A stretch of 64,000 bases of DNA from Prevotella sp. (GTDB lineage Bacteria; Bacteroidota; Bacteroidia; Bacteroidales; Bacteroidaceae): positions 155,503 through 219,502 of the forward strand of contig JAFZIZ010000005.1 of NCBI GenBank assembly GCA_017554145.1. The letters are read 5' to 3'. The translations under genes were made by a program, and so were the position numbers. This document shows positions 8,033-28,830 of the stretch, piece by piece (position 1 is the stretch's first letter; each line of letters starts with the position of its first letter). A model generated the notes under the pieces. That model had not been told where the DNA came from. It made no database searches and was given only the letters and a program-made list of their open reading frames with translations.

Positions 8033-11000
8033 TTACTTAACAACTACCTTGCGGCCGTTGAAGATATACAGACCCTTCTTCGTCGGCTTCTGCTGTAGCT
8101 GGATACCGCCGATGGTGTACCACTTACCGTCCTCGTAGGCAGTGCGTGAGAAGTTGATGGTCGTCGGATTGTCAGGACTACCGACAACGGCATTCTTCTT
8201 GAAGGTCATGATCTCACCGGTAATAGCCACCATCTCACCATCACGCTCGATAGCGAAACAGATGGGCTGTTCGGTCTCACCGGCGATGCTCAGGTAGAAG
8301 ATGCTCTCCTCGTCGGCAGGAGTGAGGCTCTCACCCATTACCTCTCCGTCGACGTAAGCCACCAGCAGGTCGCCCTCCTCAGGCTCGAAGCCTTCCACGA
8401 TAGCGCTCACGGACATCGTGCTGCGCGACTCTGCGGCGCCACGGTTCGTGCTTTGTGTCTCGTCCTCACTGAAGTTGCTACCCAACTCGTAGTACGGATA
8501 GGTGAACGACGCCGTGTCGGCCTTGCACAACATCATGTAACCCTCACCAGGTTTCATGTACTGTAAGCTACCGCGCCAGCGTCCAGTATTACCCGACTTG
8601 GTGAAGTAGGCAAACTCGGTGTGACTCTTGATGACGTCACCCTCCTCAGCCTGATCGAAGTAGTCGCTCAGGGCAGTCTCCACGGTCAGGTTCGTCATCG
8701 GTGTGTAGCCGATGGCGTTCCAGCCCTTCTTCAGTTCGATGGTGCGTGCCTCTTCCTTCTTGATGACGGTGCCACCGATGGGGAATGTGCAATCCTTCTG
8801 CACCTTGATGGCATACGAATTCTTCGGTGAGATGACCACGTTCTTCGTGTTGCCTGATGCCAGCCACTTCTTGTTCTTATAGGTCAGCGTCAGGTTGCTG
8901 CCCAGGTCGGTCAGCATGTCGCCTTCCTTCCATGGCATGTTACTGAGTAGTTTGTTCACGTCACTCAGTTCCTCGCTCTGTACGTTGAACGATACCCAGT
9001 TCCATCCCTTCTTCAGACTGAAGTTCTGTACGAAACTGTCACCGCCGTCGAAGCGTACCGGTTTGTCTGTACCCAGGACAGCCGACTTATCGAACTTGAT
9101 TTTTTGATTTGGTGTCAGCACAATCTCACGTCCTGTGCTATACTGCCACAGGCGGAAGTTTAATTCGCGACCGCTGGTCTGACTGTCGTAGACGGTCAGG
9201 TACAGACCTGTCTCGCCCGTCTGAGCATTGTGACTGATGTTAGCATAGCCATGACATAAGTTCGCGTTGTCGAAGACACCCACGATGTCACGGGAATCGG
9301 TGTCAAGCTCGTCATACAGATAAACCAGACCGGAGATACTCATCGAGTTCTTCAAGAGGTCGCCACTAATAGTATTTGCCCAGTCGGGCTGCTCGCCCTC
9401 TACCGTCAGGTTCAGGTAGAACGGCTCCACGATGCCCTCCTCATCGGTCAGATAGATAATCTCATTATATGTACCGATGTTCAGGTCCTTGCTGACCGTC
9501 GCATTGACATAATCCATCGACTGCGGTGCCACCACATCGGTGTACTTGTTGAGCGTCAGCCAGCGCGGGCAATTCTCAATCGTGTAGGTATGGCTCGAAG
9601 CACCGTTGTTGTAGAACGGCAGTTCACAGCTCTCGCCGCTACCATACTTGATTGTAACGTCCAGTTTGTTCACTAACCACTGCAGGCTGCTGTTGGTCAC
9701 ATAGTAGCAGGCCGTCTGCGGCGATGCCATCGTATTACCATTCCTGTCCTCCACGTCACGCAGCGTCACATAGATGTTGCGGTGGTTCAATTTGGCAGCA
9801 GGCTCGTCGAGCTCTACCATGATCTGGTTGTCCCTGCCGATGAACGAGAAGTTCAGGTTCGTCACTTCCTCATACGGCACTACGGGAGCAGCCATAGTGG
9901 CATCGATGTGCGACAGGATTTCGTCAACGGAATTGACGAACACATAGTCGCGTGCAGGAATGTTCGTAGGTTCATGCGTCACGGGATCTTCCTGATAGCG
10001 CATATTGCCGTCGGCGTCTAAGTATATCTTCTTGCTGTAGGCGTATGGCGTCATGACAATCTCGTTCTTATCATTGCGCTCCTGGTGGTCGAAGCCTAAG
10101 TAGGTAATCAGACCCTTCTCATCACCGTTAGGACTCTTCGTCGCATAGGTGTTGATGAGCGTCTGCGGCAGTGCCTGACCGAAGAGAATCAGTTCGTCGA
10201 TGTTACCCTTCAGTGGTGTGTTGCCACCTTCTGTTGCACCGATGAACGAGTTGCCGCTCATGCCGCCAAGGCTGTCGACCTCGAAGGTCGTCACCTGTTC
10301 CTTATCCAAATAGATGTTTGCCACGTTACGGGCACGGTTCATCGTCATGGCGAAGTGGTGCCACTGTCCGTCGCTCCAGTCGCCGGCCACCTCGGTCTCG
10401 AAGCCATTCGAGCGGTACAGCAGCTTATCGCCATCGAATCCGATGTTGAACCGGTTCTTGGAATCGCTGTCCTCCTTCAGACCGTTGCCGTTGCTCAGCA
10501 GCGTGCCGCGACCGTCGGCATCCGTCTTGAACCAGAACATCAGTGTGTAGTCCTGCTCGGCGGTGCGGTTCAGGGCATCCTGCGTCAGTTCCAGACCCTT
10601 GTCGGCCTTCTCCAAATGCAGGGACATACCGTGTGGCATAGCCCACGAAGCACCCATCAGCTTGGCGTTGGCACCTTGGGTATGGTCGGTAGCATAGTCA
10701 CCCGAGCCTTCATTCATCGGGTAGTAGTCCACGAGGTCCTTCTCGTAGCCTGTCAGTCGGTGCAGGCCATAGGTACTGAAGAGTCCTACATCCAAAGCGC
10801 GATACCACAGACGAGCCTCCATCATGCGGCCCTCGTAGTACTGGCTCTCGTTGCGGTCGACTTCGTTGGTGCGACCGAAGATAAGCGGACCAGTACCCGT
10901 ATATAGGGCTTTGAGTTTGTAGCCCTTGCCGATAACCTCACCGTCGCAGTAGAACATCAGTGTGCTGTCCTTCTGATTGATGCTGACAGCCACCTGACGG

Positions 11001-17000: not shown

Positions 17001-19627
17001 ACCGACGATTGGCAGTTCTCAATGGTTGCCGTACCATCTTTGACTTGTGCAGCGATACCAGCAGGATACATTTTACCGGACGTAACGGTACCGGCCACGT
17101 GCAAGTTCTTGATAGTGGCATTGCCTACATGTCGGAAGAGAGCAATGAACCTCTCGTTTGATGTCCAGTTCTTGTTGAAAGTTATCGTATGGCCATTGCC
17201 ATTGAAGGTGCCACGATACATGGCTCCTTCGGTTACACCCACGTGCTCACTGGTCGTGATGTCGGCTTCAAGGACGGCGTTCACGTCGTACTTGTTCACG
17301 GCTTCATTCACCATCACAGCGAACTTGTGCCAGTCGTCGGCAGTGCGGATGGTGAGAGCTGACGAATACTCCATCGTGGCATAGCTGTTCATCACCGTTA
17401 ACATGATGTTTGCGTCTTCCGACTTGTCCACACGTGCCCATGTTTCACATCCTATACCCTTGGTAGTGATGTGGTCGGGGGCGAAGAGGCAGTTATCGAT
17501 GACGACCTTGCTGTCCTTGGCTACCCAACCGATGAAACCGCCGTTTTCGTAGCTATTTTCTCCCTCAAAGTTGCCGTCGAACTTACAGTTACGGATCAAG
17601 AGTTTGGAATTATCGCCCAAACGGGAGACGATACCACCGTTAGTAAGGTTCGTCGAATTGATGGTCACCGATGACCGGCAGTTCTCAATAGTGACATCGC
17701 TGCCATTGATTATATAGGCTATCAGACCACTCGCATATTGTTCTTCGGTTTTGATGTTGCCAGCCGTGTGCAGGTTCTTGATAGTAGCATTGCCCACATA
17801 ACAGAATGGTGCCGAATATTTCTCATCGGCATGAGGAGATTTGTAGGTCAACGTATGACCGTTACCATCGAACATGCCTCGGAAAGGAAATGATTCATAG
17901 CCGATTGACTTATAGGTCTCAATGTCGGTATAAAGGCGGGCATTTACATCGTACTCACCCTTTGCTGCTTCCACTTTGTTGGCGAACGACACCCAGTCGT
18001 CGTACGTGCGGATGGAGAAGTAGTAGTCCTTCATCTTTTCCGCGTCATAGAGGTTGAGGGGCGACTTGTCGCGATCCACGTATAGTTTGATGTCATACTT
18101 CAGACAAGGACGGCTGAGGTTGATCACCTTATAGCACAGTTCGCGATCTTCCTTGTTTAGTTCGACATCTTTCTCCTCCACCACCTCACCGGCTGCGTTC
18201 ATCGAAGTGATATGTATCTTCATCTTGGCGCGGTCGTCCCATACGCCATTAGGTTCGTCGGCATACTGCCATGACACGCGGACGTTATAGGCATCGTCCT
18301 CCAACTTGGCAGAGTAGTCGGCAATACGCAGCAGGTGCAAGTTGTCCAACACGCACTTGGCAGTGCTGGCACAGGGGTTGTCCAAACCCCATCCCCAAGC
18401 CTGCGTCATGGTGCGGCGCACGCGGTAGGTCAGGTTCTCTAAGTTATAACCATCCGCCAGCATAGGCTCGGCGATGGCATCCACAAAGGTGCTGTCAACG
18501 AAGGTATAGACCGTCTTGGCGGTACTGCCGATACGGGCGAATGGTACCTGACCGATGGCGACGAAGTCTTCTTCCTTACCCGTCAGCGAGCGCTGAATCT
18601 CGAAGAAGTCAATCTCTGAAATATCCTCATCGGTGGTGCTGCCGATGTTCCACTTTACCTCCACCTTCGAATTGGCGCCACCCAAGGGAGTGACGGTGAG
18701 TCCGTGGGGCGCGTGTATCATGGTCAAGTCTTGCAGCTCTGACGCAGCGTCCTTGATAAGATACTCTCCTACGGTCTGTGCCTCATAGTAATCGGCAATG
18801 ATGCGGAAGTTACGGTGAGGCTCGTAGGCGTTGAGTTTGATAGAGCCGCTGTTCGCGGTGGTTGGCATATCCACGCTGACAAGTTTGTTGTTAGCGTCGG
18901 TATATTCATAGCGGAGCTTGCTGATCTTCTCCGGAATCATGGTCCAGGGCACTTCGATCTTACCCTTGCTGTCGTTGCTCGGTGTGGCAAGGCTGACGAA
19001 GGGCGGTGTCACTGCATTTGCCTCTGGCAGGGTGATTGGGTCGGGGTTCTTGAGACCACCAACTTCGTCCAAATATACCTTTTTACGGCCTGTACCGTTG
19101 CGCAGCACGCGCCATCTCAGCTTGATGGTCTTTCCCAGCAGCTCTTGTGGAAACACCCAAATGACATTGGCATTGAAAGTGCAGCCATCAGCGTTGCGAA
19201 CGATGTTGTATTTTTGAAAACCGGTATTAGGCTTCACTGTGTAATATGAGGTCGTATTGGTGCCTGAGGATATCTGTAAGTGACCCGGCACTTCCGATAA
19301 GAATTTGACAGGGCAGGAACTCTGGTCATTACTGATACTGGATTCGCCGACTCCCCAAGATAAGAGAATCTTCTCTGATTGGCCTTCCCATGAGGCATAG
19401 AGGACAGCGTCTTGAATCCACGCGTCGGCACCCTCCTGGTCGTAGCAGGGCACGGTAATCGTGACGGTGTTCGTTCCGCTCACAAAGACGTTGTACAAAT
19501 ACGACTGGTCAACGAATGTCTCGAAGCCGTCGTCAGCCGCCGCCGTCCGTGGCAGTAGCCATGCGAAGAGCGCCAGTAGCATCATGAGCCACGGCCGCCC
19601 TCGATAGATGTTAGTAGTTTGTTTCAT
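8033..19627 (-). CDS. Giant multidomain secreted surface protein (3864 aa) with type IX sorting C-terminus
   Basis: The signal peptide ends near residue 31 (RTAAADD). Residues about 540-1190 hold three large repeats of the GLUG/right-handed beta type, each with F-D/N-G-N-G-H-T, N-A-T-I-K-N-L-H and I-x-N-C motifs. About 1310-1410 is a fibronectin-III-like domain. About 1420-1575 holds two carboxypeptidase-regulatory-like folds. The centre (1575-2480) is unrecognised. Two LamG/concanavalin-like domains lie at about 2805-2950 and 2995-3160. C-terminal modules contain LKKGWNWVSFNV and LKKGWNAIGYTPM plus copies of the module found in the downstream lipoprotein. The end (KPTKKGLYIFNGRKVVVK) matches the sorting tail common in Prevotella. 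The role is probably adhesion or glycan binding; no catalytic motif was recognised. The gene is unbroken. Confidence 0.88.
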   Translation of the reverse strand: MKQTTNIYRGRPWLMMLLALFAWLLPRTAAADDGFETFVDQSYLYNVFVSGTNTVTITVPCYDQEGADAWIQDAVLYASWEGQSEKILLSWGVGESSISNDQSSCPVKFLSEVPGHLQISSGTNTTSYYTVKPNTGFQKYNIVRNADGCTFNANVIWVFPQELLGKTIKLRWRVLRNGTGRKKVYLDEVGGLKNPDPITLPEANAVTPPFVSLATPSNDSKGKIEVPWTMIPEKISKLRYEYTDANNKLVSVDMPTTANSGSIKLNAYEPHRNFRIIADYYEAQTVGEYLIKDAASELQDLTMIHAPHGLTVTPLGGANSKVEVKWNIGSTTDEDISEIDFFEIQRSLTGKEEDFVAIGQVPFARIGSTAKTVYTFVDSTFVDAIAEPMLADGYNLENLTYRVRRTMTQAWGWGLDNPCASTAKCVLDNLHLLRIADYSAKLEDDAYNVRVSWQYADEPNGVWDDRAKMKIHITSMNAAGEVVEEKDVELNKEDRELCYKVINLSRPCLKYDIKLYVDRDKSPLNLYDAEKMKDYYFSIRTYDDWVSFANKVEAAKGEYDVNARLYTDIETYKSIGYESFPFRGMFDGNGHTLTYKSPHADEKYSAPFCYVGNATIKNLHTAGNIKTEEQYASGLIAYIINGSDVTIENCRSSVTINSTNLTNGGIVSRLGDNSKLLIRNCKFDGNFEGENSYENGGFIGWVAKDSKVVIDNCLFAPDHITTKGIGCETWARVDKSEDANIMLTVMNSYATMEYSSALTIRTADDWHKFAVMVNEAVNKYDVNAVLEADITTSEHVGVTEGAMYRGTFNGNGHTITFNKNWTSNERFIALFRHVGNATIKNLHVAGTVTSGKMYPAGIAAQVKDGTATIENCQSSVTLKGTMNGEGTLAGIVGRVSKSNVTIRNCKFDGSFEGANSIGNGGFISWVDEESKATIENCLFAPTAINTKLDKCETWARKDSRGTVTVTNCHATREYGTCDIRTIDGKTFMVLRSNADWMRFKEALKTNDYTNAIMAADFTVTECVAWNGEGTFRGIFDGNGHTLNANLNEAGADVSPFALFKYTKGCTIKNLHLTGKIKGGAHVAGLIGQADDWNGSSKILNCRVSANIESVGNLTGGFVGRGNGADIVNCRFDGSLKTPRYAGYIGAFYGFVDGDVACAVQNCLEQGSYSNIENLGFNIKPWTWWGNGENEWTKNNWSYKGMSGATSTASLSLAQLVKKLGSDNWEVSGGIAVPKMSVTTIPANPWATMSASEMVSLLGKDYWEVVDGKAVPKMRTASAATSDGDVLANLGTWTKDGDTVVPTTTTVTETTVTINTPTLPDFYHTSTGKIDKTLITETHQSSVVLTWDTDGNPIDYFTVLRREVGQGDDAWEQVATNIDQMTYEDKTVSPLKQYEYKVRATSDCEGKYYTETDVKAGACKNTGRLEGYVRFNDGTGIPGVTVNIVGGSIQTSATTDESGHYVADELSYQGKTSITYEVTAGSKVEAEVQQYAVTFDAKTNDVTVHEFTAINGKRFSGYVMYEGTSIPVKGANFLLNGKKLHNATGKYVETDEEGQFSFRVLPDDNTIQVVMDGHQFVNGGSYSKHFTGDVAGIYFYDDTKVKLIGRIVGGNDQGNLPLGNNLSKNNLGDNLQMVLALEGDDKSWLVYDNLNKERTEREESYQHAGDGGHQTKVKTLRKRMEVTPDPATGEYVLKLPPVRWKVEQVYCQGYPTLFQEGQASEVIDLTDCLAPKDTTYEGSFMDVDGNTIYKPTANYNAVYNRIYHNPVELTYKQLSYDSFDYLGDKNYNSTTMSGDKVQLPLAYKNPENPTTATYTFGFPVFSLERKYYIQLQVAERYPYNNDLSSEKIDYVKVGGGLATMHNGFKNGVVKDTLSLDANGQCTFMLQADQVAQPVGIENALRTVTFSVEQDGTHFEAAPLHGYILNMYPIGKGKDLLTDGQPLLFDILRDPPGAYSSSTLAKGATLNNSYAMNLSMSGGVMFNFSLADKLTWFQGYVDGDTQFLTDTFDGIFDGVEHAAEKVDISYTDLVFNYNGSKAWSHTMVLSNAVSTSGDPSMVGADADLYIGMVQNVQIKPLSSICVIPDSVYKARMAAGGIGQLNTTGDVTQYAKYGTMAHIAAGVGADGKIYHLVRDISIGYGPKLKQQFIYSQKQILEEIIPGLAKQIMDLMFLGTQEEAKRAANSSGKAIYRSLREPSDSKFGYKNKEYNTEKMTADEYTHYVIVLPDGKTPADCPDEIAEKSEIIYAWSKMITQNEREKLNATDLVNSFDIAGAAGVNYSETFSSSYSNATSMYFPYGVQPDYFSRGSGVGTTVAALVVNYVGGGIFGYLESLKKLDPTVKGGVKNQESSLKFSGTYFRWSLTPVLTSTTIGTNSIANEYNRSIAFTIAAAPTSRLAVDVYRVPMADATNGKGKYDPEDVFSNYNFQQLNDTTLHYLKKESNLPDHGEPCSFVFRTRGGYTSNPWEDERKTHFYNAGSLLDERTLKIDNPTISLDKHSVSGVSINDPARFTIFLANESEKPEATLGLSAMQLFAADQANPNGAKISVNGQTLTTAGMTVSLVPGVTTQLEMEVRAGKGFDYEGLTIGLMSPGDAEHAIATTTFDVHFLREAGAVNISVPSDKWVLNTNAQQDPKRGWYIPVTISDFDRHQHNFDHIEFQYKESQRGDDAWTNLCSYYTDSLLMANANGVCEMIPENGNIITEFYGEGWTIERSYDLRAVLFCRNGGTFLTSPSKVISGIKDTRRPQLFGTPEPKSGLLTSGDDIVFNFSEDIEYNNLSAISNFEVKGEVNNNELSEMVSLQFEGKASVESEAKRNFSGKDLTIDLRIKPAETGRDMPLFSHGTNGQELQLWLTSDMYLKAVINDQAFTSTKAIKPGAFRQVAVSINQKDSTLMFYCDGEVIGKGYKLKALYTGTGPLIFGRTNEVDRNESQYYEGRMMEARLWYRALDVGLFSTYGLHRLTGYEKDLVDYYPMNEGSGDYATDHTQGANAKLMGASWAMPHGMSLHLEKADKGLELTQDALNRTAEQDYTLMFWFKTDADGRGTLLSNGNGLKEDSDSKNRFNIGFDGDKLLYRSNGFETEVAGDWSDGQWHHFAMTMNRARNVANIYLDKEQVTTFEVDSLGGMSGNSFIGATEGGNTPLKGNIDELILFGQALPQTLINTYATKSPNGDEKGLITYLGFDHQERNDKNEIVMTPYAYSKKIYLDADGNMRYQEDPVTHEPTNIPARDYVFVNSVDEILSHIDATMAAPVVPYEEVTNLNFSFIGRDNQIMVELDEPAAKLNHRNIYVTLRDVEDRNGNTMASPQTACYYVTNSSLQWLVNKLDVTIKYGSGESCELPFYNNGASSHTYTIENCPRWLTLNKYTDVVAPQSMDYVNATVSKDLNIGTYNEIIYLTDEEGIVEPFYLNLTVEGEQPDWANTISGDLLKNSMSISGLVYLYDELDTDSRDIVGVFDNANLCHGYANISHNAQTGETGLYLTVYDSQTSGRELNFRLWQYSTGREIVLTPNQKIKFDKSAVLGTDKPVRFDGGDSFVQNFSLKKGWNWVSFNVQSEELSDVNKLLSNMPWKEGDMLTDLGSNLTLTYKNKKWLASGNTKNVVISPKNSYAIKVQKDCTFPIGGTVIKKEEARTIELKKGWNAIGYTPMTNLTVETALSDYFDQAEEGDVIKSHTEFAYFTKSGNTGRWRGSLQYMKPGEGYMMLCKADTASFTYPYYELGSNFSEDETQSTNRGAAESRSTMSVSAIVEGFEPEEGDLLVAYVDGEVMGESLTPADEESIFYLSIAGETEQPICFAIERDGEMVAITGEIMTFKKNAVVGSPDNPTTINFSRTAYEDGKWYTIGGIQLQQKPTKKGLYIFNGRKVVVK

Positions 19628-19672: not shown

Positions 19673-20230
19673 CTATGCCTTCTCCGATTCTGTCACGAAA
19701 CACGCCACCAGACCGTAGGTGATGGTGGGACGAATCCATATCTCGGTAAGCATGTAGTTGGTGTACTCGCTGTCGGGCTGCAGGAAGATGGCCCAGTTGT
19801 AGAGCGCGGCAATAAGCATGTCGATGATGCAGATCAACCACAGGTTACGCTTGGTGTAACTCTTCCAGTTCTTGCGCGCATAGAAATAGGTGAGCATACA
19901 GAGCAGCAGCACCGCGAGGGTGAGACACGACAGGTGGAGTGCATAAAAGGGCAACTGCGGAGGGAAAAGAATGTCGCGCAGCAACACCGTGATACCCACT
20001 GAGATAGAACACCAGTAGTTGAACCGGTGAGTGTCAAGTCGGTTGAAGAAGTACATCCAGATCATCACCAGACAAGCGATATAGAACAAATTAAGCACTA
20101 GTTCGGGCCAAGCCTCTTTCAATCCGAAATAGGCGATGCCATAGAGCATGACACCAACCGACACCATCGCTGCCACGGCAGTGATGACAATATCAAAAAT
20201 CTTAGCGTTTTTCTTAAATCTTGTTTGCAT
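19673..20230 (-). CDS. Integral membrane protein of unknown function
   Basis: 185 residues with about five hydrophobic helices (near 13-35, 43-62, 70-88, 97-118 and 128-150), short loops and a basic N-terminus (MQTRFKKNAK). I recognise no family motif. It is the first gene of the operon that continues with the giant surface protein (45 bp downstream) and a lipoprotein, and it lies directly after the regulatory repeat at 20277-20372. This context suggests a helper for surface assembly or an inner-membrane partner, but that is only inference. Confidence 0.75.
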   Translation of the reverse strand: MQTRFKKNAKIFDIVITAVAAMVSVGVMLYGIAYFGLKEAWPELVLNLFYIACLVMIWMYFFNRLDTHRFNYWCSISVGITVLLRDILFPPQLPFYALHLSCLTLAVLLLCMLTYFYARKNWKSYTKRNLWLICIIDMLIAALYNWAIFLQPDSEYTNYMLTEIWIRPTITYGLVACFVTESEKA

Positions 20231-20271: not shown

Positions 20272-20303
20272 CAAAGATAAAACAAAATCTCAAAAAAAAC
20301 AAT
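20272..20303 (-). promoter_or_regulatory. Promoter of the membrane protein/giant protein/lipoprotein operon
   Basis: On the minus strand a TATCTTTG -7 box (20272-20279) is preceded after 20 nt by ATTG (20300-20303), an imperfect -33 element. The start codon of the membrane protein gene is about 40 nt downstream. The paired direct repeats at 20330-20362 lie just upstream, where an activator would bind. Confidence 0.65.
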
Positions 20304-20372
20304 AGCAAAATACCCCCTACATGCAGATTTTGCATATTTTGAAACAATTATTGCATATTTTGAAAGTCGAGG
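20277..20372 (-). repeat. Regulatory repeat, copy A (about 95 bp; copy B at 26224-26318)
   Basis: This stretch is nearly identical to 26224-26318, with a handful of differences clustered around 20310-20318. Both copies contain two TTGCATATTTTG elements exactly 21 bp apart (20330-20341 and 20351-20362 here), a related TGCAGATTTTG just beside them, and the upstream part of a minus-strand promoter. Spacing of 21 bp in direct orientation is the arrangement of AraC-family dimer sites such as araI1-I2. Confidence 0.9.
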
Positions 20373-20615
20373 GTAAGCGAACGCAGACGAAAACTCGTTT
20401 TCAGTCTGCTAAGCGAGAGCGACTTCGCAAGAAAATTGCAAAGTCGAGGGGGGAAAAAGGTTGCGCCTGGGGTTACACGTTGGAGTATTTCCTAGTACAC
20501 GTAGGAAAAATTACTAGTACACGTAGGAGAAATTACTAGTACACGTACCCGTAAATTTGTCATCAAAGACAATGCAAACGCGTTAGCGGGAATCAGTTCC
20601 CCTATGAGGCATTAT
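20373..20615. other. Remaining intergenic DNA upstream of the giant-protein operon
   Basis: With copy A this makes a 385-bp gene-free region. It holds an inverted repeat (20383-20394 with 20397-20409, one bulged base), a short direct repeat of AAGTCGAGGG (20364 and about 20441) and, nearest the phytase gene, three tandem 22-bp iterons at 20492-20557. No open reading frame with coding character was seen. Confidence 0.7.
20492..20557. repeat. Three tandem 22-bp iterons
   Basis: CTAGTACACGTA occurs at 20492, 20514 and 20536, an exact 22-bp period. The first two units continue GGARAAATTA and the third diverges. They lie about 220-280 bp upstream of the promoter of the giant-protein operon and just past the 3' end of the phytase gene. 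They are a possible multimeric protein-binding site. Confidence 0.85.
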
Positions 20616-21674
20616 TCATTTGAATTGCGTCTTCCACTGCGCCCAGGACATCCGAAAACCCTTGGGTTGGTTTTCCTGGATGTATTTGTAGACGAGCGGA
20701 ATCATCTCGGCTTTCTCCTTAGCGAGGGACACCTTGAAGGGATCCTCATTGGGTTTATCGCCCTGATAGTACATGAAGTTGCCACCCAGTTTGTAATGGC
20801 GGTAAATGACATCCTTCTCCGATACGTCAGGGTTACGCATAAAATCGAAGAACACCAGATACATTGTTGTTCGACCCCTACCCGCCAGGCAGTGGAAGTG
20901 CAGCCAGGTGTCGGCGGGCAATTGCTGGACAAAGGCGATAAAATCGTCAAGGCTGCGAGGGTCGGTGAAACAGTGGTCAAGTACTGTCAGTCGCACATAG
21001 CCCAAACCGCGTTTAGCACAGGCTTCGGCCTCGGTTTCGGCCGTCGTAACGTCAATTTTGATGGAATCAGAGGACTGGTAGCCGTTGGCACTGCCTAGGA
21101 TGACTGTTGATAGCTGCTGTCCCAGGGTGTTGTGAATCTGTTCAGCCTCCTCGGCAATGATTGTCTCATGGCTCAGACCGATGTTGGCCCAGTTCTGCTT
21201 GCCATAGATCGACACATGATTGCCGTTTATCAGGCCATGCGTCTCATTGCGGAGGTCAACGATGGTTATCGGGCCGGAGTGCAGTTTCCTGATTTCTTTG
21301 ACGAGTGTGTCCAGCTGAAGAGCGCTGAAGTCGGAACTGGCACTGGTTTTCAACTTGTCCAACCCTTTTCTCGAAGGCTCATAATCAGGGTCGTATCCGT
21401 TCAGCAAATCCCGCTCCACGAACTCGCTCATTGAGGTTCTCCAGTTGAGGGGCATCCCCGTCTTGTTCTCAAATTCCAGCCGCCAGGCATAGGGGGCATA
21501 TTCTTCCCGTTGCTCCTTGGTGACATTCTCACGTTCCTCAGCAGCATATAGGTATTTGTAATGCTGCTGGTTGTCCGCTGCTTTTTCAACGTCACTCGAC
21601 GAACATGCTGTGAATACATTTACACCGCAGGTTGTCAGGATGGCGAGCATCCAAAAGAAAATCTTCTTTTGCAT
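20616..21674 (-). CDS. PTP-like inositol polyphosphatase (cysteine phytase), lipoprotein
   Basis: 352 residues. The lipoprotein signal ends FTAC (Cys24), followed by SSSDVEK. The catalytic P-loop HCLAGRGRTTM (Cys262, Arg268) has the CX5R form, and the following Thr-Thr is typical of the PTP-like phytases of Selenomonas type. The flanking family signatures are present: an Asp-His pair in VLDHCFTDP (general-acid region), a DLRNETHGLING segment and NWANIGLS. The usual reaction is stepwise dephosphorylation of myo-inositol hexakisphosphate outside the inner membrane; a lipid or protein phosphatase role is less likely. It is the last gene of the amidohydrolase/iPGM operon, 11 bp after the APH-like gene. 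Confidence 0.87.
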   Translation of the reverse strand: MQKKIFFWMLAILTTCGVNVFTACSSSDVEKAADNQQHYKYLYAAEERENVTKEQREEYAPYAWRLEFENKTGMPLNWRTSMSEFVERDLLNGYDPDYEPSRKGLDKLKTSASSDFSALQLDTLVKEIRKLHSGPITIVDLRNETHGLINGNHVSIYGKQNWANIGLSHETIIAEEAEQIHNTLGQQLSTVILGSANGYQSSDSIKIDVTTAETEAEACAKRGLGYVRLTVLDHCFTDPRSLDDFIAFVQQLPADTWLHFHCLAGRGRTTMYLVFFDFMRNPDVSEKDVIYRHYKLGGNFMYYQGDKPNEDPFKVSLAKEKAEMIPLVYKYIQENQPKGFRMSWAQWKTQFK

Positions 21675-21685
21675 ATCTTATACGT

Positions 21686-22534
21686 TTATCCGATGACCTT
21701 CGGCAGTTGCTGGAGCGCTTCTTCGGGGAGGCGGCCCTGAACCTGCATGTCTACCATATAGGGCAGTCTGACGGCATAGTAGGCCATGAGTCGTCTGGTG
21801 TAATCGCCAATCGCCGCTTTGTCGTCCGTTCCCAAGTAGGCAGCGAGGAAGATGTTCCAGTGGGCTTTGAGCGTCTCGGGGGTGACATGGAGGATGAAGT
21901 CGGTCCGTTTGCCGTCCATCCGGTTGCAGATAGTCCACATCCACCCCAAGTCCCACTCTGGCTCACCATAACTGAACTGCCCCAGGTCAATCCAGAGGTT
22001 GCGCTGTCCGTCGGTGATGACGTTGCCGATATGCAGGTCGCCGTGCAGACAGGTGTCAGCATCGGGCGTCTTGTCGATGAAGTTCAACGCACGCTCCTTG
22101 TACTCTTCCGTCACCTTGTCGCCTTTCTCCTGATAGAAGCGGCGGAGCGTCTCCTTGATGGACGTGAAACGCAAGGTATTTGCCTTGATGTCGTGCAGTT
22201 CCCGCGCCATGCGGGCGAAAGCCAGCGAAATCTCCTCCAGTCTTTCCGGTTCTTGCGAGATGATGCGCGTAAACGAGCGCTTGTTCCTAATCAGTTCGTA
22301 TTCTACTCCTTGGCGCTGACCGTCGGTTACTAACTGGAGAGGTTCAGGCGTTGGTATGCCCATCTCGAAGACAGCGCGGGCGGTCAGGAATTCCTTTTTT
22401 GCCAACTCAGCCTCGTTACCAGGATTGAAGAGTTTGGCCATCGTGGGGCGCGTCTTGTGTGTGTAGGTAAGGGCTGTTCCACCCTCGCCTGTCTGAACAT
22501 AGTCGTTCAAATCAATGGTTTCGTAAGTCTTCAT
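21686..22534 (-). CDS. Aminoglycoside/choline kinase-like phosphotransferase
   Basis: 282 residues from the ATG at 22534, 11 bp after the preceding stop; an upstream GTG at 22564 would overlap the iPGM gene. The APH-fold catalytic loop CLHGDLHIGNV and the metal-binding segment WIDLGQFSYGEPEWDLGW are intact, as is an ATP-site Lys region (GGTALTYTHKTRPTMAKLF). There is no signal peptide, so it is cytoplasmic. The family phosphorylates hydroxyls on aminoglycosides, choline, sugars or other small molecules. Set between a phytase and a phosphoglycerate mutase, a small-molecule kinase in a phosphate-ester pathway is more likely than drug resistance. The substrate is unknown. Confidence 0.8.
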   Translation of the reverse strand: MKTYETIDLNDYVQTGEGGTALTYTHKTRPTMAKLFNPGNEAELAKKEFLTARAVFEMGIPTPEPLQLVTDGQRQGVEYELIRNKRSFTRIISQEPERLEEISLAFARMARELHDIKANTLRFTSIKETLRRFYQEKGDKVTEEYKERALNFIDKTPDADTCLHGDLHIGNVITDGQRNLWIDLGQFSYGEPEWDLGWMWTICNRMDGKRTDFILHVTPETLKAHWNIFLAAYLGTDDKAAIGDYTRRLMAYYAVRLPYMVDMQVQGRLPEEALQQLPKVIG

Positions 22535-22545
22535 AATATATTGTT

Positions 22546-24183
22546 TTATTCGTTTATGAGGCACTGGCCGGTCATTTCCTTGGGCTGTTGCAGGCCCATG
22601 ATGTGGAGGATGGAAGGAGCCACGTCGGCCAGGATGCCGCTGCGCACCGTCGCGTTCTTGTTCGCGGTCACGTAGATGAAAGGGACGGGGTTGACGGAGT
22701 GTGCCGTGTTGGGCGAACCGTCGGCATTGATGGCATGGTCGGCGTTGCCGTGGTCGGCGGTGATGATGGTCTCATAGCCCATCGCCTTGGCCGTTTCCAC
22801 GACCTCGTTCAGGCATTGGTCGATCACTATCACGGCCTGTTCGATGGCGGTATAGACGCCCGTGTGACCCACCATGTCGGCGTTGGCGAAATTCACCACG
22901 ATCCAGTCGTACTTGTCGGTTTTGAGCGCCTCGATGAGCTTGTCCTTCACCTCGTAGGCCGACATCTCGGGCTTCAGGTCGTAGGTGGCCACCTTGGGCG
23001 AGGCAACCAGGATGCGGTCCTCGCCCGAGAACGGCTCCTCAAGGCCGCCATTGATGAAGGAGGTGACGTGGGCATATTTCTCCGTCTCGGCGATGTGTAA
23101 CTGCTTCAGACCCTTGCTGGCGATGTATTCGCCGAGGGTATTTTCCAGGTTATCCTTGGGGAAGATGATGTGTACGCCCGTGAAAGTGTCGTCGTAGGGC
23201 GTCATGCAGTAGTACTGCAGGTTGGGGATGGTCGTCATGCCCTGCTCCGGCATGTCCTGCTGCGTGAGCACGATGGTCAGTTCCTTGGCGCGGTCGCTGC
23301 GGAAGTTGAAGAAGATGACCACGTCGCCCTCCTTGATGCGACCATCGACCGTGCTATTGACCAGCGGCTCCATGAACTCGTCGGTGTTCTTGTGCTCCTC
23401 GGTATGGCTGTCGTAGCAAGACTGTACGCCCGCCACCATGTCGGTCACCTCGCGCCCCTTGCCGCCGACAAGCAGGTCGTAGGCCAGCTTGATACGGTCC
23501 CAGTTCTTGTCGCGGTCCATGGCGTAGAAGCGTCCGATGACAGAGGCAATGGCACCTGTGCCCACCTTGTCGATGTGCTGCTGCACGTCAGCAATAAAGC
23601 CCTTGCCCGCTCTTGGGTCGGTGTCACGGCCGTCCATGAAGCAGTGTACGTAGCAGTTCTGGATGTCGTACATCTTGGCGATGTCAATGAGCTTCAACAG
23701 GTGGTCAAGCGAGGAGTGGACGCCGCCCGTGGAGGTCAGGCCCATCAGGTGCAGGCTCTTGCCGCTGGTCTTGGCATAGCTGTAAGCCGCCTTAATCTCT
23801 GGATTCTCCAAGATGGAGTTGTCGGCACAGGCATGGTTGATCTTCACCAGGTCCTGATAGACGATGCGCCCGGCACCGATATTCAGGTGGCCTGTCTCCG
23901 AGTTGCCCATCTGTCCGTCGGGCAGCCCCACGTACTCGCCCGAGGCCTGCAACTCGGTGTGCGGATAGTTCGTTTTCAGGTAGTCTATGTAAGGCGTGGC
24001 TGTCTGTGCTATCACATCCCCCTGACCCTTGTCCCCGATGCCCCAGCCGTCGAGAATAATCAGCAGCGCCTTCTTGGCATGGCCATCGTCCTTCGTCCCG
24101 CCGTTATCCTCGTTCGACGTACACGCCGTTAACGCAATTGCACTGCAAACGATGGCGGCGAACAGCCATTGGCTTATTTTCAT
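22546..24183 (-). CDS. gpmI: 2,3-bisphosphoglycerate-independent phosphoglycerate mutase carrying a lipoprotein signal
   Basis: 545 residues: a full-length iPGM core of about 510 residues preceded by a clear lipoprotein signal (LTAC, Cys21, then TSNEDN). Active-site motifs are intact: LDGWGIG with metal Asp45, [17 protein letters not shown] with nucleophile Ser95, [36 protein letters not shown] and TADHGNADH. iPGM is normally a cytoplasmic glycolytic enzyme, so an exported, lipid-anchored form is odd. Acidic residues after the Cys suggest outer-leaflet display. It may dephosphorylate or isomerise external phosphoglycerate-like esters, together with the adjacent phytase. The signal is in frame with no break, and the start has the same leader as the amidohydrolase gene. 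Confidence 0.9.
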
Positions 24184-24214
24184 CGTTAGCTATGTTTTAA
24201 GTTATTTCTTTTTG
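24181..24214 (-). repeat. Duplicated translation leader, copy 1
   Basis: The 34 nt ending at the iPGM start are almost identical to the 35 nt before the amidohydrolase start (26153-26187), with one substitution and one indel. A shorter version precedes the gene starting at 24492. The core is ACTTAAAACATARCTAACG. In copy 1 the upstream part also encodes the KKK-stop end of the preceding gene. Confidence 0.85.
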
Positions 24215-24492
24215 TATAATCGACGTTTCCCGTAAAGGCAGAAAAGTAACAGGGCTACAAAGAGGACTGCGAGGCATACCTTTTTGAGAATAGGGAAATG
24301 ACGCACAGCATCGTCCATTACCTTTACCCGTGATGCTTCAGTAATGCCATCAATACCCCGTGCTGAGTTTTCCAACTCAGCAATCCATAGATAGATGCCT
24401 TGCAGCCAATCAGTACCGCCCCATAGTAGCAGAAGAACGGCTACGACAACTAGAGAAAGAATGATGAAAAAAGAATAAATCTTCTTTTTCAT
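24202..24492 (-). CDS. Small two-helix membrane protein, unknown function
   Basis: 96 residues. Hydrophobic helices at about 6-25 and 70-88 flank a polar loop of some 45 residues (WLQGIYLWIAELENSARG and on), probably extracytoplasmic, and both ends are Lys-rich (MKKK and YKKK). No family is recognised. It lies between the amidohydrolase (25 bp upstream) and the lipoprotein iPGM (18 bp downstream), and its start region shares sequence with the cupin and phytase genes. It could anchor or assist one of the neighbouring exported proteins; nothing in the sequence proves this. Confidence 0.65.
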   Translation of the reverse strand: MKKKIYSFFIILSLVVVAVLLLLWGGTDWLQGIYLWIAELENSARGIDGITEASRVKVMDDAVRHFPILKKVCLAVLFVALLLFCLYGKRRLYKKK

Positions 24493-24517
24493 TATTAGTT
24501 ATGTTTTAAGTTGTTTC

Positions 24518-26155
24518 TTACGCTTTATAAACCTCTTTGCCATCAACGATGGTGGCAACGATATTGGCCTGGGCAACCTTCTCGATGTCGTCGTGCAGGA
24601 AGTCGCAATCAAACACCGTCATATTGGCAATCTTACCGAACTCGATGGAACCAATGCGATGCTCCTGATGCCACTGACGAGCCACATTGATGGTCATCGC
24701 ACGCAACGACTGTTCGCGGGTAATGGCCTCCTTGACATTACGCGGTTGGCACAGATCGCCATACAAATCCTTTGGAGTCGTGCGTTTTTCTGCCATGTAA
24801 ATGCTGTATTTGACATTCATCATCGGGGAAACGGGGAAGTCGGAATGGAACACCACGTTGGCACCTGCATCATAGAACGACTTGATGGGATAGGCCTGAT
24901 CTGTCAGTTCCTTACCAACGTAAGAAACTTCCTGTTCGTAAGGACCTCCAGAAATCTTCGCAGTCCAAAGTGGTGCAACCGCCGGAACGGAGCCTGTCGC
25001 TCCCATACGGCGGATATCCTCATCGGTGACGAAGTGCAGGTGCGCCAGCACGTTGCGCTGGTCCTTGTCGCCGGTAATCTTTTCAGCATCCTCGATGCAG
25101 CCTAGCATGAAATGGGTAGCGCCGCCTCCTTCAGAGTGGACATGGACAGCGAGTCCCTCCTTGTCGGCCTCAACAATCAGTTGAACCATCTTATCGTGGT
25201 CGTTAAAGCGCTCCACACCATGATAACCGGGCTGGTCGAGATAGTCCTGATTCTGCCAACCTGTATGTGCCTCGGTCACACCGTCGAGGAATGCCTTCAG
25301 GCCGACAATCTGGAAATATTCACCGTTATACTCGGCACGCTCTGCGGCAACACGGGCCACCTCTGCCTTCGGGTCGGCAACATTGTCGGGCACCAGCATA
25401 TAGGCATAGGTGCGCATTTTCAACTTGCCTTCCTTTTCCAACTCATGGTACGCTTTGCCACAATCCTTGAAGAAAATCTCCACACCGGCGTCAGCGACTC
25501 CGGTAAAGCCGCTGCTGAGGGCAAAATCCTGCCATGCCAGCAGATAGTTTTTGGCATACTCCAATGAAGTGGGAAGCTTGGGCATGATTTCCATCACCGG
25601 ATTTTCACAGATATAGCCGTCAGGTTCGCCATTGGCATCAACGTGTACCATGTCATAGCCGATTCTCTTGGCGTATGCCGCATCGATACCTGCCCATTCC
25701 AGTGCCTTGGTGTTGAGTAGCATGGAGTGTCCGCCGCCTGTTTGCATGAGGAGTGGCTTATCAGAGCATATCTCATCCAAATACGCCTTGGTGACGTATT
25801 CCTCACTTTCCACCCATCCTGCTGCAAGGTAGAGCTCGCGCTGTGGGTTGTTAGCAATGAATTCCTTGATGATTTTGCGGTATTTGGCGTAGTCGGTCAA
25901 GCCCACCTGCATGAGGTTTGCCTGTCCGATAAAGCGATCACCGGCAAAATAGCCGTGACAATGGGACTCGAGGAAACCAGGATAGATGAAGTTCTCACCG
26001 TAATCCAGCACCTGCGCATCCGTGCCTGCAAGCTTCTTCGCTTCTTCTACACTGCCGATATAGGCAAATACACCGTTCTTCACTAATGCGGCCTTGGCAA
26101 AGGGTCGCTTTTCATCCATCGTGATGATGTTGCCAAGAATAATCGCTTGTTTCAT
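24518..26155 (-). CDS. Amidohydrolase of the YtcJ type (amidohydrolase family 3)
   Basis: 545 residues without a signal peptide. Metal and catalytic motifs of the amidohydrolase superfamily are visible in order: PGFLESHCHGYF (HxH), KAFLDGVTEAHTG (bridging Lys region), AVHVHSEGG, NVLAHLHFVTDED and VVFHSDFPVSP (catalytic Asp). The C-terminal strand GKIANMTVFDCDFL closes the composite beta domain. YtcJ-like enzymes hydrolyse N-acyl or imide bonds, and the substrates are mostly unknown. It is the first gene of the operon that continues with the small membrane protein, iPGM, kinase and phytase. Regulatory repeat B and a promoter lie directly upstream. Confidence 0.87.
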   Translation of the reverse strand: MKQAIILGNIITMDEKRPFAKAALVKNGVFAYIGSVEEAKKLAGTDAQVLDYGENFIYPGFLESHCHGYFAGDRFIGQANLMQVGLTDYAKYRKIIKEFIANNPQRELYLAAGWVESEEYVTKAYLDEICSDKPLLMQTGGGHSMLLNTKALEWAGIDAAYAKRIGYDMVHVDANGEPDGYICENPVMEIMPKLPTSLEYAKNYLLAWQDFALSSGFTGVADAGVEIFFKDCGKAYHELEKEGKLKMRTYAYMLVPDNVADPKAEVARVAAERAEYNGEYFQIVGLKAFLDGVTEAHTGWQNQDYLDQPGYHGVERFNDHDKMVQLIVEADKEGLAVHVHSEGGGATHFMLGCIEDAEKITGDKDQRNVLAHLHFVTDEDIRRMGATGSVPAVAPLWTAKISGGPYEQEVSYVGKELTDQAYPIKSFYDAGANVVFHSDFPVSPMMNVKYSIYMAEKRTTPKDLYGDLCQPRNVKEAITREQSLRAMTINVARQWHQEHRIGSIEFGKIANMTVFDCDFLHDDIEKVAQANIVATIVDGKEVYKA

Positions 26156-26187
26156 CGTTAGTTATCGTTTTAAGTTATTTCTTTTTG
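26153..26187 (-). repeat. Duplicated translation leader, copy 2
   Basis: The amidohydrolase leader matches the iPGM leader (24181-24214) at all but two positions. It sits about 31 nt downstream of the -7 box at 26219-26226. Confidence 0.85.
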
Positions 26188-26218
26188 CTAGGTTTTCGCA
26201 GCTTTGTTGCTTTAGTTG

Positions 26219-26249
26219 CAAATATAAAACAAAATCTCCAAAAAACAAT
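26219..26249 (-). promoter_or_regulatory. Promoter of the amidohydrolase/iPGM/phytase operon
   Basis: On the minus strand TATATTTG (26219-26226) is preceded after 19 nt by ATTG (26246-26249), the same arrangement as in front of the giant-protein operon. The -33 region lies inside regulatory repeat B. Confidence 0.62.
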
Positions 26250-26318
26250 AGCAAAACCTGCACTACATGCAGATTTTGCATATTTTGAAACAATTATTGC
26301 ATATTTTGCAAGTCGAGG
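26224..26318 (-). repeat. Regulatory repeat, copy B (copy A at 20277-20372)
   Basis: Contains the two TTGCATATTTTG elements at 26276-26287 and 26297-26308, offset by 21 bp, and the neighbouring TGCAGATTTTG. It ends exactly at the stop codon of the nucleoside-hydrolase-like gene, while copy A ends in non-coding DNA. The two copies control two different operons in the same orientation. Confidence 0.9.
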
Positions 26319-27164
26319 TTATTTATCAAGGAGAGAGGAGTAAATTTTGTTTGCTCTGCGTATCTTCTCCAGCATTTGCGCTGCCCACTCTTTGGTGCCG
26401 GGCAGTTGGTAGCGGCAATTACCTGTGACTGAGGGTGCGAAGATCGTCTGGGCCTTGTCAGTGAAGGTTACCGTGCCACGTCCGGAGAGAGAGAACAGGG
26501 CATCGCCCTCCACGGCCTGTACGACGGGCATCACATCCCACATGCGCTGTCCCGTGTTGCAGTCGCACTGCATATAAACCTGCTTGATAGGATGTGCATC
26601 GGTCCACGAGACGTCGGCAATGACCTGCTCAGGCGTATATTCCACATCCTGTCCTGCCTCCATCGGTGAGAACACCATATCGACCTCCTGCGGCCAGTTC
26701 TGGAAGAAGGTCTTGGCGAACGTGATGCCTTGGGCAAAGTTGAAATCAGGCTCCTCGGCCTCACCGAACACGCCGCCCTGCAGATAGATACATTTCACCT
26801 TGCGGCGCACTAGTTCCACGCCTGAAAGCGATGAATACTCGTCGGCCCCGGATGCCAGCAACTGTGCCAGACAAGTGACGAAGCCCTCGCTCACGATGCT
26901 CACTGAGTGGTCGGGCTGTGTGACCAGCAGACGGCAACGCCCCTCATCCTCGTAGCGATAGAGCATCTCCAAGGCAAAGAGGTCATCGGTCGATGACCCG
27001 ATGTCGGTGTCGTATATGATGAGCGGCACACCCGTATACTCCTGCGGTTCCAACGCATTATCGTCGTTGGAGCAGGAGCTAAGCACGCTTGCACCACAAA
27101 AGACAATAGTGAGTACTAATTGTCCGAGGATGGCTGCGAGCACCCTTTTCATCATCTTTTGCAT
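26319..27164 (-). CDS. Nucleoside-hydrolase-like lipoprotein
   Basis: 281 residues. The signal ends LSSC (Cys31), followed by SNDDN, an acidic run that fits surface export. The mature protein starts with VPLIIYDTDIGSSTDDLFAL, a clear relative of the calcium-binding DTDxGxDDxxAL motif of inosine-uridine nucleoside hydrolases (Asp52, Asp54, Asp60 and Asp61). A two-residue insertion separates the Asp clusters compared with classical IUNH. The length is slightly short for the family (usually about 310) because of the exported form. Probable activity: cleavage of N-glycosidic bonds of nucleosides outside the inner membrane; the substrate is unproven. It lies 19 bp after the cupin gene. Confidence 0.78.
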   Translation of the reverse strand: MQKMMKRVLAAILGQLVLTIVFCGASVLSSCSNDDNALEPQEYTGVPLIIYDTDIGSSTDDLFALEMLYRYEDEGRCRLLVTQPDHSVSIVSEGFVTCLAQLLASGADEYSSLSGVELVRRKVKCIYLQGGVFGEAEEPDFNFAQGITFAKTFFQNWPQEVDMVFSPMEAGQDVEYTPEQVIADVSWTDAHPIKQVYMQCDCNTGQRMWDVMPVVQAVEGDALFSLSGRGTVTFTDKAQTIFAPSVTGNCRYQLPGTKEWAAQMLEKIRRANKIYSSLLDK

Positions 27165-27183: not shown

Positions 27184-27642
27184 TTACTCCAACGGAATCT
27201 CTGGATGCTGCACGGCCAGTGGCATGTCCTTCTGCGAGAGGTAGAACATGTAGAGGATGACGGGTACGGAGCCAGTGTTCTCGCCGTGGTGGATGGTGTT
27301 CACCATCTCGACGACGGGCTCGCCCTCATGCACCACCTTCTTCTTGCCATCCTGTCCGATGATGGTCAGCTCGCCCTGCATCAGCACGCCGTAATTCATT
27401 ACCGGGTGGTGGTGCCAGCCCAGCTTCTGGCCCACGGGGAACACATATTTCACGGCCACCAGCTCGGGGCGTCCCTGCAGGTAGTCGGGCAGTTCCACGC
27501 CGTCCCAGCTCTTGTCGGTACGTATCAGTTCTGTGCTTTGCACCGACTTAATGTCGTCACCAAGCGTTTTTGTTGTTTTGCAGGCCGTCATGCCGCAAAT
27601 TAAGGTGGCGGTTATCACCCAATAGAAAATCTTCTTTTTCAT
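27184..27642 (-). CDS. Cupin-domain lipoprotein
   Basis: 152 residues from the ATG at 27642; a start 11 codons further up lacks any support. The signal ends MTAC (Cys21), followed by KTTKTL, so it lacks the acidic surface-export signature and may stay periplasmic. The mature part is a single cupin barrel: a metal-binding first motif GWHHHPVMNYGVLMQGE and a second motif with HHGENTGSVPVIL. The fold is used for small-molecule binding or isomerase/oxygenase chemistry, and the ligand cannot be told. The first eight codons nearly match those of the phytase gene. It lies between the AraC regulator and the nucleoside-hydrolase-like gene. Confidence 0.8.
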   Translation of the reverse strand: MKKKIFYWVITATLICGMTACKTTKTLGDDIKSVQSTELIRTDKSWDGVELPDYLQGRPELVAVKYVFPVGQKLGWHHHPVMNYGVLMQGELTIIGQDGKKKVVHEGEPVVEMVNTIHHGENTGSVPVILYMFYLSQKDMPLAVQHPEIPLE

Positions 27643-27714
27643 CGTTGTTTGTCGTTTTATTATGTATCCCTGCATTATAGCCGCCCCTTATCAAGGGGCT
27701 CTAAATGTTTTAAG

Positions 27715-28830
27715 TTACTTTTCCACACTGCGCATCCAAGCCGTTACGGACTGACCCATGCGCTGCTTGAAGGCGAGGCTGAAGGTGCTATAACTGCGAT
27801 AGCCGCTTTCACTCGCCAGTCGCTGGGCGACGACGGTCTGTCCAGTAGATGCGACCTCTTGGTAGAGGTTGATGAAGTGGTTGATGCGCAAATTATTAAT
27901 ATAAGTATTGTAAGTGATGCTCTGACGGGAGAAATACTGGCTGAGATAGAAACGGTTGGTACCAATGGTTTGTGCCAGTTGCTGAAGGGTTAGGTCATGC
28001 TGCAGGTAAAGCTGCGTGTCCTGGCAACGCTCTTTCAACAGTTGTTCAATTTGGATAAGGTCGATATTGGAAATGATCGGTGTGGGATTAGAGTCCTCTG
28101 GCTCAGATGATGTATCCGTTTGCTCCAAGACGTTTTTCTCCGCCAACAGCGGTAGTGTCTCCACACGCCACAACAGCAGAACGACAAGCACAAGCTCGAA
28201 GATATGGATGAGCCAGATAAAGACCATGTCAGTAGCGAGTGCATAAATCATGAACAGTAGCATGCAGATGAGCGAGACTGCCTGACACAGCCATACCTTC
28301 TTGTTCTCCAGATCGGCATAGTTGTCGTTCAGCCACCGTTCGTACCGTCTGATGGAAAATATCATATATCCGGTAAAGATCAAGCCGAGCAACACAATGT
28401 AAGCAGCGGCGATATGATCGAGCTGACTATTAGGATAGGCCATGTACGCTCCCACAAGCAAAACGAACGGTATCATGGCCACCAGGGCAGGCCACACGGG
28501 GCGGCGACGATCCTGCAACATGGCAAACAGCATGCCGGAAAAGGTGACGAACAGCAACACGTAGTCAAGCATGGCAAGCACCAAATAGCTTACGGAATGC
28601 AGGTCGCCGGAGTAGATGTAGAACAGCAGCCACCACACGTGCGCCAATGACACGACGGCAAAGAACGCCGCCGTCCAGCGGCGCAACCGCACCGGCGGTG
28701 TAACGCCTGGCGCAATAGCATTGCCTCGGCGCAGCAGCAGGTAAACGGCAGCAATGAGTGGCACCACTCCTGTTATGCCATAGAGGATGAAAAACAGTAT
28801 AACCTCAGATGATATTTGTTCGAGAAACAT
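27715..28830 (-). CDS. Membrane-embedded AraC-family transcriptional regulator
   Basis: 371 residues. The N-terminal 225 residues hold about seven hydrophobic helices with short loops. A polar linker (about 228-265, rich in Asp, Glu, Ser and Pro) follows, then an AraC double helix-turn-helix (about 270-368) with DLTLQQLAQTIGTNRFYLSQ and the second-HTH signature SGYRSYSTFSLAFKQRMGQS. The membrane part would sense an external or membrane signal. The gene heads the block of lipoprotein genes and lies 19 bp after the SLC13 carrier. The two 21-bp-spaced direct-repeat sites at 20330-20362 and 26276-26308 have the geometry of AraC targets, so it is the prime candidate to control both operons. That link is inference. 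Confidence 0.88.
   Translation of the reverse strand: MFLEQISSEVILFFILYGITGVVPLIAAVYLLLRRGNAIAPGVTPPVRLRRWTAAFFAVVSLAHVWWLLFYIYSGDLHSVSYLVLAMLDYVLLFVTFSGMLFAMLQDRRRPVWPALVAMIPFVLLVGAYMAYPNSQLDHIAAAYIVLLGLIFTGYMIFSIRRYERWLNDNYADLENKKVWLCQAVSLICMLLFMIYALATDMVFIWLIHIFELVLVVLLLWRVETLPLLAEKNVLEQTDTSSEPEDSNPTPIISNIDLIQIEQLLKERCQDTQLYLQHDLTLQQLAQTIGTNRFYLSQYFSRQSITYNTYINNLRINHFINLYQEVASTGQTVVAQRLASESGYRSYSTFSLAFKQRMGQSVTAWMRSVEK

Follow-up and report, generated by a model that had tools for sequence, protein, structure and literature searches.

The locus

We analysed a stretch of 64,000 nucleotides from Prevotella sp. (assembly GCA_017554145.1, contig JAFZIZ010000005.1, positions 155,503 to 219,502), hereafter the window, in which two nearly identical noncoding stretches of about 95 bp lie upstream of two groups of genes and close to a gene for a predicted membrane-embedded AraC-type protein. 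Each stretch holds the 12-mer CAAAATATGCAA twice on the minus strand with a period of 21 bp, or TTGCATATTTTG when read on the plus strand, with the same start-to-start spacing. The surrounding stretches align as direct repeats (82 nt at 91% identity together with an overlapping 27 nt at 93%, with a one-base offset), and blastn of one stretch against the other gives 90% identity across positions 3-106 of a 111-nt query. On the minus strand, both copies read GACTT(T/G)CAAAATATGCAATAATTGTTTCAAAATATGCAAAATCTGCATGTAG, followed by a core promoter with TAnnTTTG at its end, which we take to be the Bacteroidetes-type -7 box. An earlier note on this DNA had described two near-identical stretches of about 95 bp in the same orientation, each with the motif twice at 21 bp upstream of a minus-strand -7 box, and this description is borne out at both sites. 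Both -7 boxes lie partly or wholly beyond the spans given for the two repeat stretches, and the operator 2 stretch starts directly after the stop codon of a gene for a 281-residue protein.

20330..20362, minus strand: operator 1, two CAAAATATGCAA with a 21-bp period (distal repeat 20351-20362, proximal repeat 20330-20341)
20272..20279, minus strand: -7 box TATCTTTG, 83 bp from the start of the distal repeat of operator 1
26276..26308, minus strand: operator 2, two CAAAATATGCAA with a 21-bp period (distal repeat 26297-26308, proximal repeat 26276-26287)
26219..26226, minus strand: -7 box TATATTTG, 82 bp from the start of the distal repeat of operator 2
27715..28830, minus strand: regulator with seven predicted transmembrane (TM) helices and an AraC DNA-binding domain made of two helix-turn-helix (HTH) units (HTH1 residue F294; HTH2 residues S348 and L352)

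The regulator has 371 residues, in which a predicted 7-TM bundle is joined directly to the DNA-binding domain. Matches to PF12833 (HTH_18; 37.5 bits against a cut-off of 33.6, residues 285-367) and PF00165 (HTH_AraC; 37.2 bits against a cut-off of 26.6) are the only ones found in Pfam, with neither a histidine kinase nor a receiver domain among them; the part outside the HTH region has no Pfam match at E ≤ 0.001 and hence none to the Pfam 7TM receptor families. A structure model shows the helices of the two-HTH domain, for which ToxT is the best-scoring solved relative. The claim that a membrane-embedded AraC regulator is encoded at this position agrees with the domain matches and the seven predicted TM helices.

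The repeats in their own genome and across species

Within the window, the 12-mer at up to two mismatches has 15 matches against 6.24 expected, a count that none of 100 shuffles reaches. The exact 12-mer occurs five times in the whole genome, four of them in the window (control 0), and the pair at up to three mismatches occurs only as the two window sites. A profile built from sequence alone, using the 43 sites described below, scores the window sites at 61.5 and 59.1 bits and two weak sites at 31.9 bits (C3:172502) and 14.8 bits (C18:84697; E 0.06), with noise beginning at E 0.26. The weak C18 site adjoins the second 7TM-AraC gene of this genome, and the C3 site precedes a gene for a 231-residue AraC-like protein with one TM segment. 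Because the genome is incomplete (83.5% complete, contamination 5.1%), these genome-wide counts are lower bounds.

A separate tandem array of three 22-bp units (TACACGTAGGA..CTAG) lies at 20474-20547, between the phytase gene and operator 1. Its core, CTAGTACACGTA, also occurs at C11:80087, C15:69460, and C37:71385, in tandem at two of these three places.

A motif-only exact scan of one genome per species, across 84,980 species (GTDB), returned 43 sites spread over 41 loci. The label of every locus is Prevotella, Prevotellaceae, Bacteroidaceae, or Bacteroidales, and many of the titles carry ruminant names. Beyond the 24 searched letters, the conserved positions are GACTTT ahead of the first repeat, GTTT ahead of the second, and in most cases an A following each. 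When the two window sites are included, TAnnTTTG is found 81-83 bases past the start of the first repeat in 35 of 45 sites, and any other 3-base window from 34 to 397 holds it in at most one site (two sites are short-flanked); a looser form of the box raises the count to 36 of 45 by hand. Among the nine sites without a box at the set distance, L020, L025, and L028 hold extra repeats, so that by eye another pair is proximal; L023, L032, and L033 lack a box altogether; L045 is cut by the edge of the fetched stretch; and in L041 and L052 the box is shifted or changed.

The loci with extra repeats carry arrays of three or four repeats ahead of the promoter. In L023, L032, and L033, operator copies stand without a -7 box and with a start codon close behind, and L023 by eye resembles L030 minus about 70 bp of promoter.

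Searching the 41 motif loci with the window proteins by tblastn, we found a homologue of the AraC regulator in 18 (one match is a 21-residue fragment at a slice edge and another is partial), of a giant protein in 9, of a 185-residue membrane protein in 7, of an amidohydrolase in 8, and of an iPGM-family enzyme and a cupin protein in 4 each; some of these homologues are slice-edge fragments, and for the amidohydrolase the match is distant or fragmentary in six of the eight loci. By hand count, one or more of these six families are present in 29 of the 41 loci, and the end of a regulator gene often directly precedes the motif site. Other families behind the motif include Na/H exchangers, HlyD and AcrB-type pumps, PAP2 proteins, a carboxylesterase, a secretory lipase, and fimbrillin-like and pyridoxal phosphate decarboxylase-like proteins (17 of 20 hand-picked proteins could be assigned, one of which, in L053, precedes its site and is left out).

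The co-occurrence of repeat and regulator is also seen in a sample of 100 genomes of the genus. The pair at up to two mismatches occurs in 12 of them, at 18 sites (reversed control, 1), and the regulator (E ≤ 1e-40) in 30, including all 12 motif genomes (hypergeometric p about 8e-8). A regulator gene is found on the same contig as 13 of the 18 sites and no more than 1.5 kb away from seven of them. The earlier note had proposed a search of the genome and its relatives for the repeat near the AraC gene and the same operons; the repeat proves not to be scattered (two good and two weak sites in its own genome), and it recurs together with the AraC homologue, in all 12 motif genomes and in 18 of the 41 motif loci, and with homologues of the same target genes. 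This outcome favours the note's assignment of the regulator.

Putative operators found from the regulator side

The regulator is present in 124 of 398 genomes of the genus (E ≤ 1e-60, with at most five candidates scored per genome), many of which have two to five copies, in 3 of 247 genomes of the order (E ≤ 1e-40, its own included), and, among 296 genomes of the phylum, in its own alone (E ≤ 1e-30). It is therefore mostly a Prevotella family. From the best matches listed, which are not a random sample, we collected 156 regulator loci, or 155 after removal of one duplicate.

A motif-free search for 13-mer repeats with at most one mismatch, in the 900 bases behind the regulator gene, recovered a period of 21 in 47 of 146 loci, compared with at most 8 at any of the remaining periods between 13 and 44. 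Alternative periods of this kind and a reversed pattern were the controls. Before the regulator gene, the corresponding counts are 15 of 145 loci for period 21, 10 for period 20, and 9 for period 22. A second criterion combined a repeat matching at 11 of 15 positions with a correctly spaced -7 box. At period 21, 62 loci had such a repeat behind the gene in the same orientation, and 10 had one ahead of the gene and divergent from it; the other periods gave 0-3 loci per class, save period 20 with 13 and 14. These period-20 cases, though at first noise-like, are by eye mostly real variants. A tandem repeat of 20 or 21 bp with a -7 box adjoins 97 of the 155 regulator loci (70 with period 21 and 27 with period 20), 74 behind the gene and 23 divergent. 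Many related Prevotella regulators have their own version of the operator alongside. Two loci from other families of the order show a similar arrangement: L213 has a 21-bp repeat with a homologue of the 185-residue protein behind it, and L212 has a repeat at 22 bp with an imperfect 21-bp pair discernible by eye.

Co-variation of regulator residues and operator letters

Repeat letters differ between regulators, even within a genome. In 42 hand-grouped genomes, 23 of which have at least two loci, an identical half-site is found in none of 44 paralogue pairs. We used 96 loci, after dropping the chance repeat L082, to scan about 356 protein columns against 15 operator positions, or about 5,340 pairs. 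The top pair couples residue 294 (GTNR[X]YL, in HTH1) with operator position 11, the G of GCAA, and the second couples HTH2 residue 348 with position 2; both ranks are unchanged without the TCTCAG clade (77 loci). Among 92 distinct loci, an A in the proximal repeat accompanies T294 in 13 of 15 cases and other residues in 4 of 77 (Fisher 1e-10, kinship ignored). On a quick tree built from the TM part alone, residue 294 gives 8 independent pairs, 6.4 in the same direction and 0 opposite (p about 0.03), and residue 348 gives 12, with 9.5 in the same direction and 0 opposite (p about 0.004). Each of the two residues is located where a predicted helix begins (293-302 and 347-358). Given which operator position pairs with which HTH, HTH1 probably faces the promoter side.

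A rule fixed beforehand was then applied to 18 new loci (20 fetched, of which 2 were duplicates). Eight have an operator; position 11 is correct in six of six where the residue makes a prediction, and position 2 in six of seven where the residue is readable, with L232 wrong. The rule also agrees with L212 (S294; ACAA and GTAAA), L213 (F294; GCAA), and the second regulator of the window's own genome (T294; TTTACAA). The motif loci were selected for a motif that contains GCAA, and 12 of the 14 readable regulators in them have F, Y, or L as residue 294.

Genes behind the operators

The following genes lie between operator 1 or 2 and the ends of the presumed operons, or beside the regulator.

19673..20230, minus strand: 185-residue multi-TM protein, first gene behind operator 1, with homologues near the operator in other genomes
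8033..19627, minus strand: 3864-residue giant protein, second gene behind operator 1, putatively at the surface
7192..7989, minus strand: 265-residue lipoprotein-like protein, third gene behind operator 1; its homologue adjoins the giant protein in L033
24518..26155, minus strand: amidohydrolase (PF07969), first gene behind operator 2
24202..24492, minus strand: 96-residue protein with two hydrophobic segments
22546..24183, minus strand: iPGM-family metalloenzyme with a lipoprotein-like N terminus
21686..22564, minus strand: APH-type phosphotransferase family protein
20616..21674, minus strand: PTP-like phytase with a lipoprotein-like N terminus
26319..27164, minus strand: 281-residue lipoprotein-like protein, between the regulator cluster and operator 2
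27184..27675, minus strand: cupin protein, encoded immediately after the regulator gene and with homologues at 4 of the 41 motif loci

The earlier note had operator 1 driving an operon of the giant protein. The giant protein does lie behind this site, but as the second gene; the first encodes the 185-residue membrane protein. Pfam has no family for the 185-, 281-, or 96-residue proteins, and NCBIfam has no match above the curated cut-off for these three or for the TM part of the regulator. Models of SusC and SusD match none of 35 proteins scanned. The truncated protein of locus L034 begins with a CarboxypepD_reg domain, which is also carried by TonB-dependent receptors.

Several features of these genes stand apart from the operators. 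A 34-nt stretch recurs at the start codons of the genes for the iPGM-family enzyme, the 96-residue protein, and the amidohydrolase (24177-24210, 24486-24519, and 26149-26182; 68-88%) and looks like a leader region copied inside the operon. The lipoprotein-like signal sequence on the iPGM-family enzyme is odd for a glycolytic enzyme, and homologues of this protein (72-89% over the matched pieces) occur in motif loci L025, L030, L044, and L054. The giant protein gene holds 134-nt repeats (73%) at 16806-16939 and 17478-17611.

A candidate one-component receptor and the alternatives

We propose, with a probability of roughly 0.83, that the membrane AraC protein encoded at 27715-28830, a one-component 7-TM receptor, uses the two repeats as tandem operators and activates both operons. 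With seven TM helices followed by a cytoplasmic AraC-type domain, the protein would sense something in or across the membrane and bind both repeats as a pair, with two protomers next to each other on the same face of the double helix, some 66 and 87 bp ahead of the start point. HTH1 would read the promoter-proximal GCAA of each repeat and HTH2 the TTTCAAAAT part, and the bound pair would recruit polymerase and so activate the core promoter behind the repeats. Operator 1 would thereby control the 185-residue membrane protein, the giant protein, and a lipoprotein, and operator 2 the amidohydrolase, the 96-residue protein, the iPGM-family enzyme, the APH-type protein, and the phytase. The data show the repeats, their spacing, their fixed distance to the promoter, and their co-occurrence with and adjacency to the regulator gene, and residue-letter co-variation ties this protein family to the repeats, lending indirect support to binding.

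A number of observations weigh against this proposal. No regulator lies within the fetched stretch in 23 of the 41 motif loci, and by the same criteria 58 of the 155 regulator loci, and 10 of the 18 held-out loci, lack such a repeat. A hydropathy scan detects only six of the seven TM segments. The residue pairs tested on the tree were chosen after the data had been seen, with a p value of only about 0.03 for residue 294, and the pairing of residue 352 with positions 5 and 2 and of residue 344 with position 5 is not significant on the tree. The 40 strongest co-varying pairs include 16 in the TM part and 9 in the linker, which we take as mostly a clade effect. One of the six held-out successes at position 11 (L240) is a doubtful low-complexity repeat, and 2 of the 14 motif-locus regulators have T294 despite GCAA; two genes intervene between regulator and site in L038, and L043, where the regulator gene is adjacent, is a plain exception.

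The same data bear on three other explanations. The protein might bind the repeats and repress, or merely anchor the locus at the membrane, since the direction of control cannot be read from sequence. We consider this unlikely: the repeats lie upstream of the core promoter rather than over it, at a fixed distance in 35 of 45 sites, a position expected of an activator that contacts RNA polymerase. Less probable still is a scenario in which a different regulator, for instance the small single-TM AraC-like protein of contig C3, is the main protein on the operator and the 7TM-AraC is a mere neighbour. That 231-residue protein (L005, 729-1424) does stand behind a weaker operator copy, and its homologues (73% and 61%) stand behind the operator in L038 and L044, which suggests that this second regulator may itself be a conserved target; its place behind the operator fits that role. 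Operator letters, moreover, co-vary with residues of the 7TM-AraC over the 96 loci, paralogues in one genome have different operators, and the 7TM-AraC is present in every one of the 12 motif genomes among the 100 sampled.

The most improbable of the three, in our view, is that a short promoter block, mobile or recently duplicated and with no specific regulator, accounts for the repeats. This reading draws on the 91% identity of the window copies over 82 nt, on five exact sites on a single contig of a relative (NZ_CAMJFM010000012.1), and on the missing -7 box at L023 and L033 on that contig and at L032 in another genome. Conservation across genomes nevertheless covers the repeats, a few flanking letters, the distance to the -7 box, and little else, and the repeat letters change with the regulator. 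This sparse conservation beyond the repeats and the -7 distance led us to reject a mobile element as the main explanation; a genome-wide repeat was likewise rejected, there being only two good sites in the genome. The block was likely duplicated inside the window cluster as a working promoter.

Beyond the window, a wider picture can be offered tentatively, at somewhat less than even odds: a Prevotella family in which a 7-TM bundle with the topology of G protein-coupled receptors (GPCRs) would perceive a lipophilic or membrane signal and bind DNA without a relay, splitting into several insulated channels within a genome, each equipped with a tandem operator of its own that is read by a simple residue-to-base code; one channel would control a giant surface protein and periplasmic enzymes. 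That the likely targets (pumps, lipases, PAP2 proteins, exchangers, and surface proteins) hint at envelope or lipophilic signals is speculation. The assignment of likely operators to unnamed Prevotella membrane regulators makes their target genes readable from sequence, and the co-variation is a first, testable step towards a code by which AraC domains recognise DNA. Together these data suggest a way for a genus abundant in gut and rumen to connect membrane sensing directly to DNA; likely targets include giant surface proteins, RND pumps, Na/H exchangers, lipases, and PAP2 proteins.

Comparison with known systems

Among the matches listed in a search of open-licence titles and the starts of abstracts, we found no description of a membrane or 7TM AraC family in Bacteroidetes or Prevotella, or of such operators, and an earlier one is possible. 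The comparison with microbial rhodopsins and GPCRs concerns the fold only, with 6-14% identity and with helical bundles scoring high by chance. Microbial rhodopsins carry the retinal-binding lysine in the seventh TM helix, whereas the last TM helix of the regulator (residues 202-225) has no lysine for a retinal link. Like ToxR and CadC, the window protein would be a membrane protein that binds DNA directly without phosphotransfer; those regulators have a single TM helix and another type of HTH, in contrast to seven TM helices and an AraC domain here.

The regulator shares with the AraC/XylS activators AraC, MarA, and ToxT the two-HTH domain (PF12833). These activators are soluble, with a ligand-binding domain or none, and in the window regulator the 7-TM bundle replaces the ligand-binding domain. 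At araBAD, the I1/I2 orientation is the reverse of the arrangement suggested here, in which HTH1 would lie on the promoter side. A further likeness is the use of direct-repeat sites about two helical turns apart, 21 bp at both window sites, where binding is presumed. AraC-family members are described as binding direct repeats (PMC9723621).

The closest parallel in operator geometry is with the hybrid two-component systems (HTCS) of Bacteroides. According to PMC3878776, the operators predicted for HTCS consist of directly repeated sequences spaced 21 bp apart on average (for example 12+9, 16+5, and 14+6 bp), interpreted as dimer sites on one side of the DNA, and the window operators share this geometry of about 21 bp. 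SusR-type operators were rejected as a model, the SusR repeat distance being 67 or 77 bp in the same paper. Further likenesses, according to PMC3878776 and PMC11253607, are an AraC-type DNA-binding domain on a membrane protein and the presence of many paralogues that have similar motifs within clades and lie beside their target genes. HTCS proteins combine a periplasmic sensor with a histidine kinase and a receiver, whereas the window protein has seven predicted TM helices and an AraC domain only; because the kinase and receiver are missing, it is not an HTCS. Overall, the regulator is most likely a lineage-restricted AraC one-component regulator that combines a 7-TM input part with HTCS-like operators.

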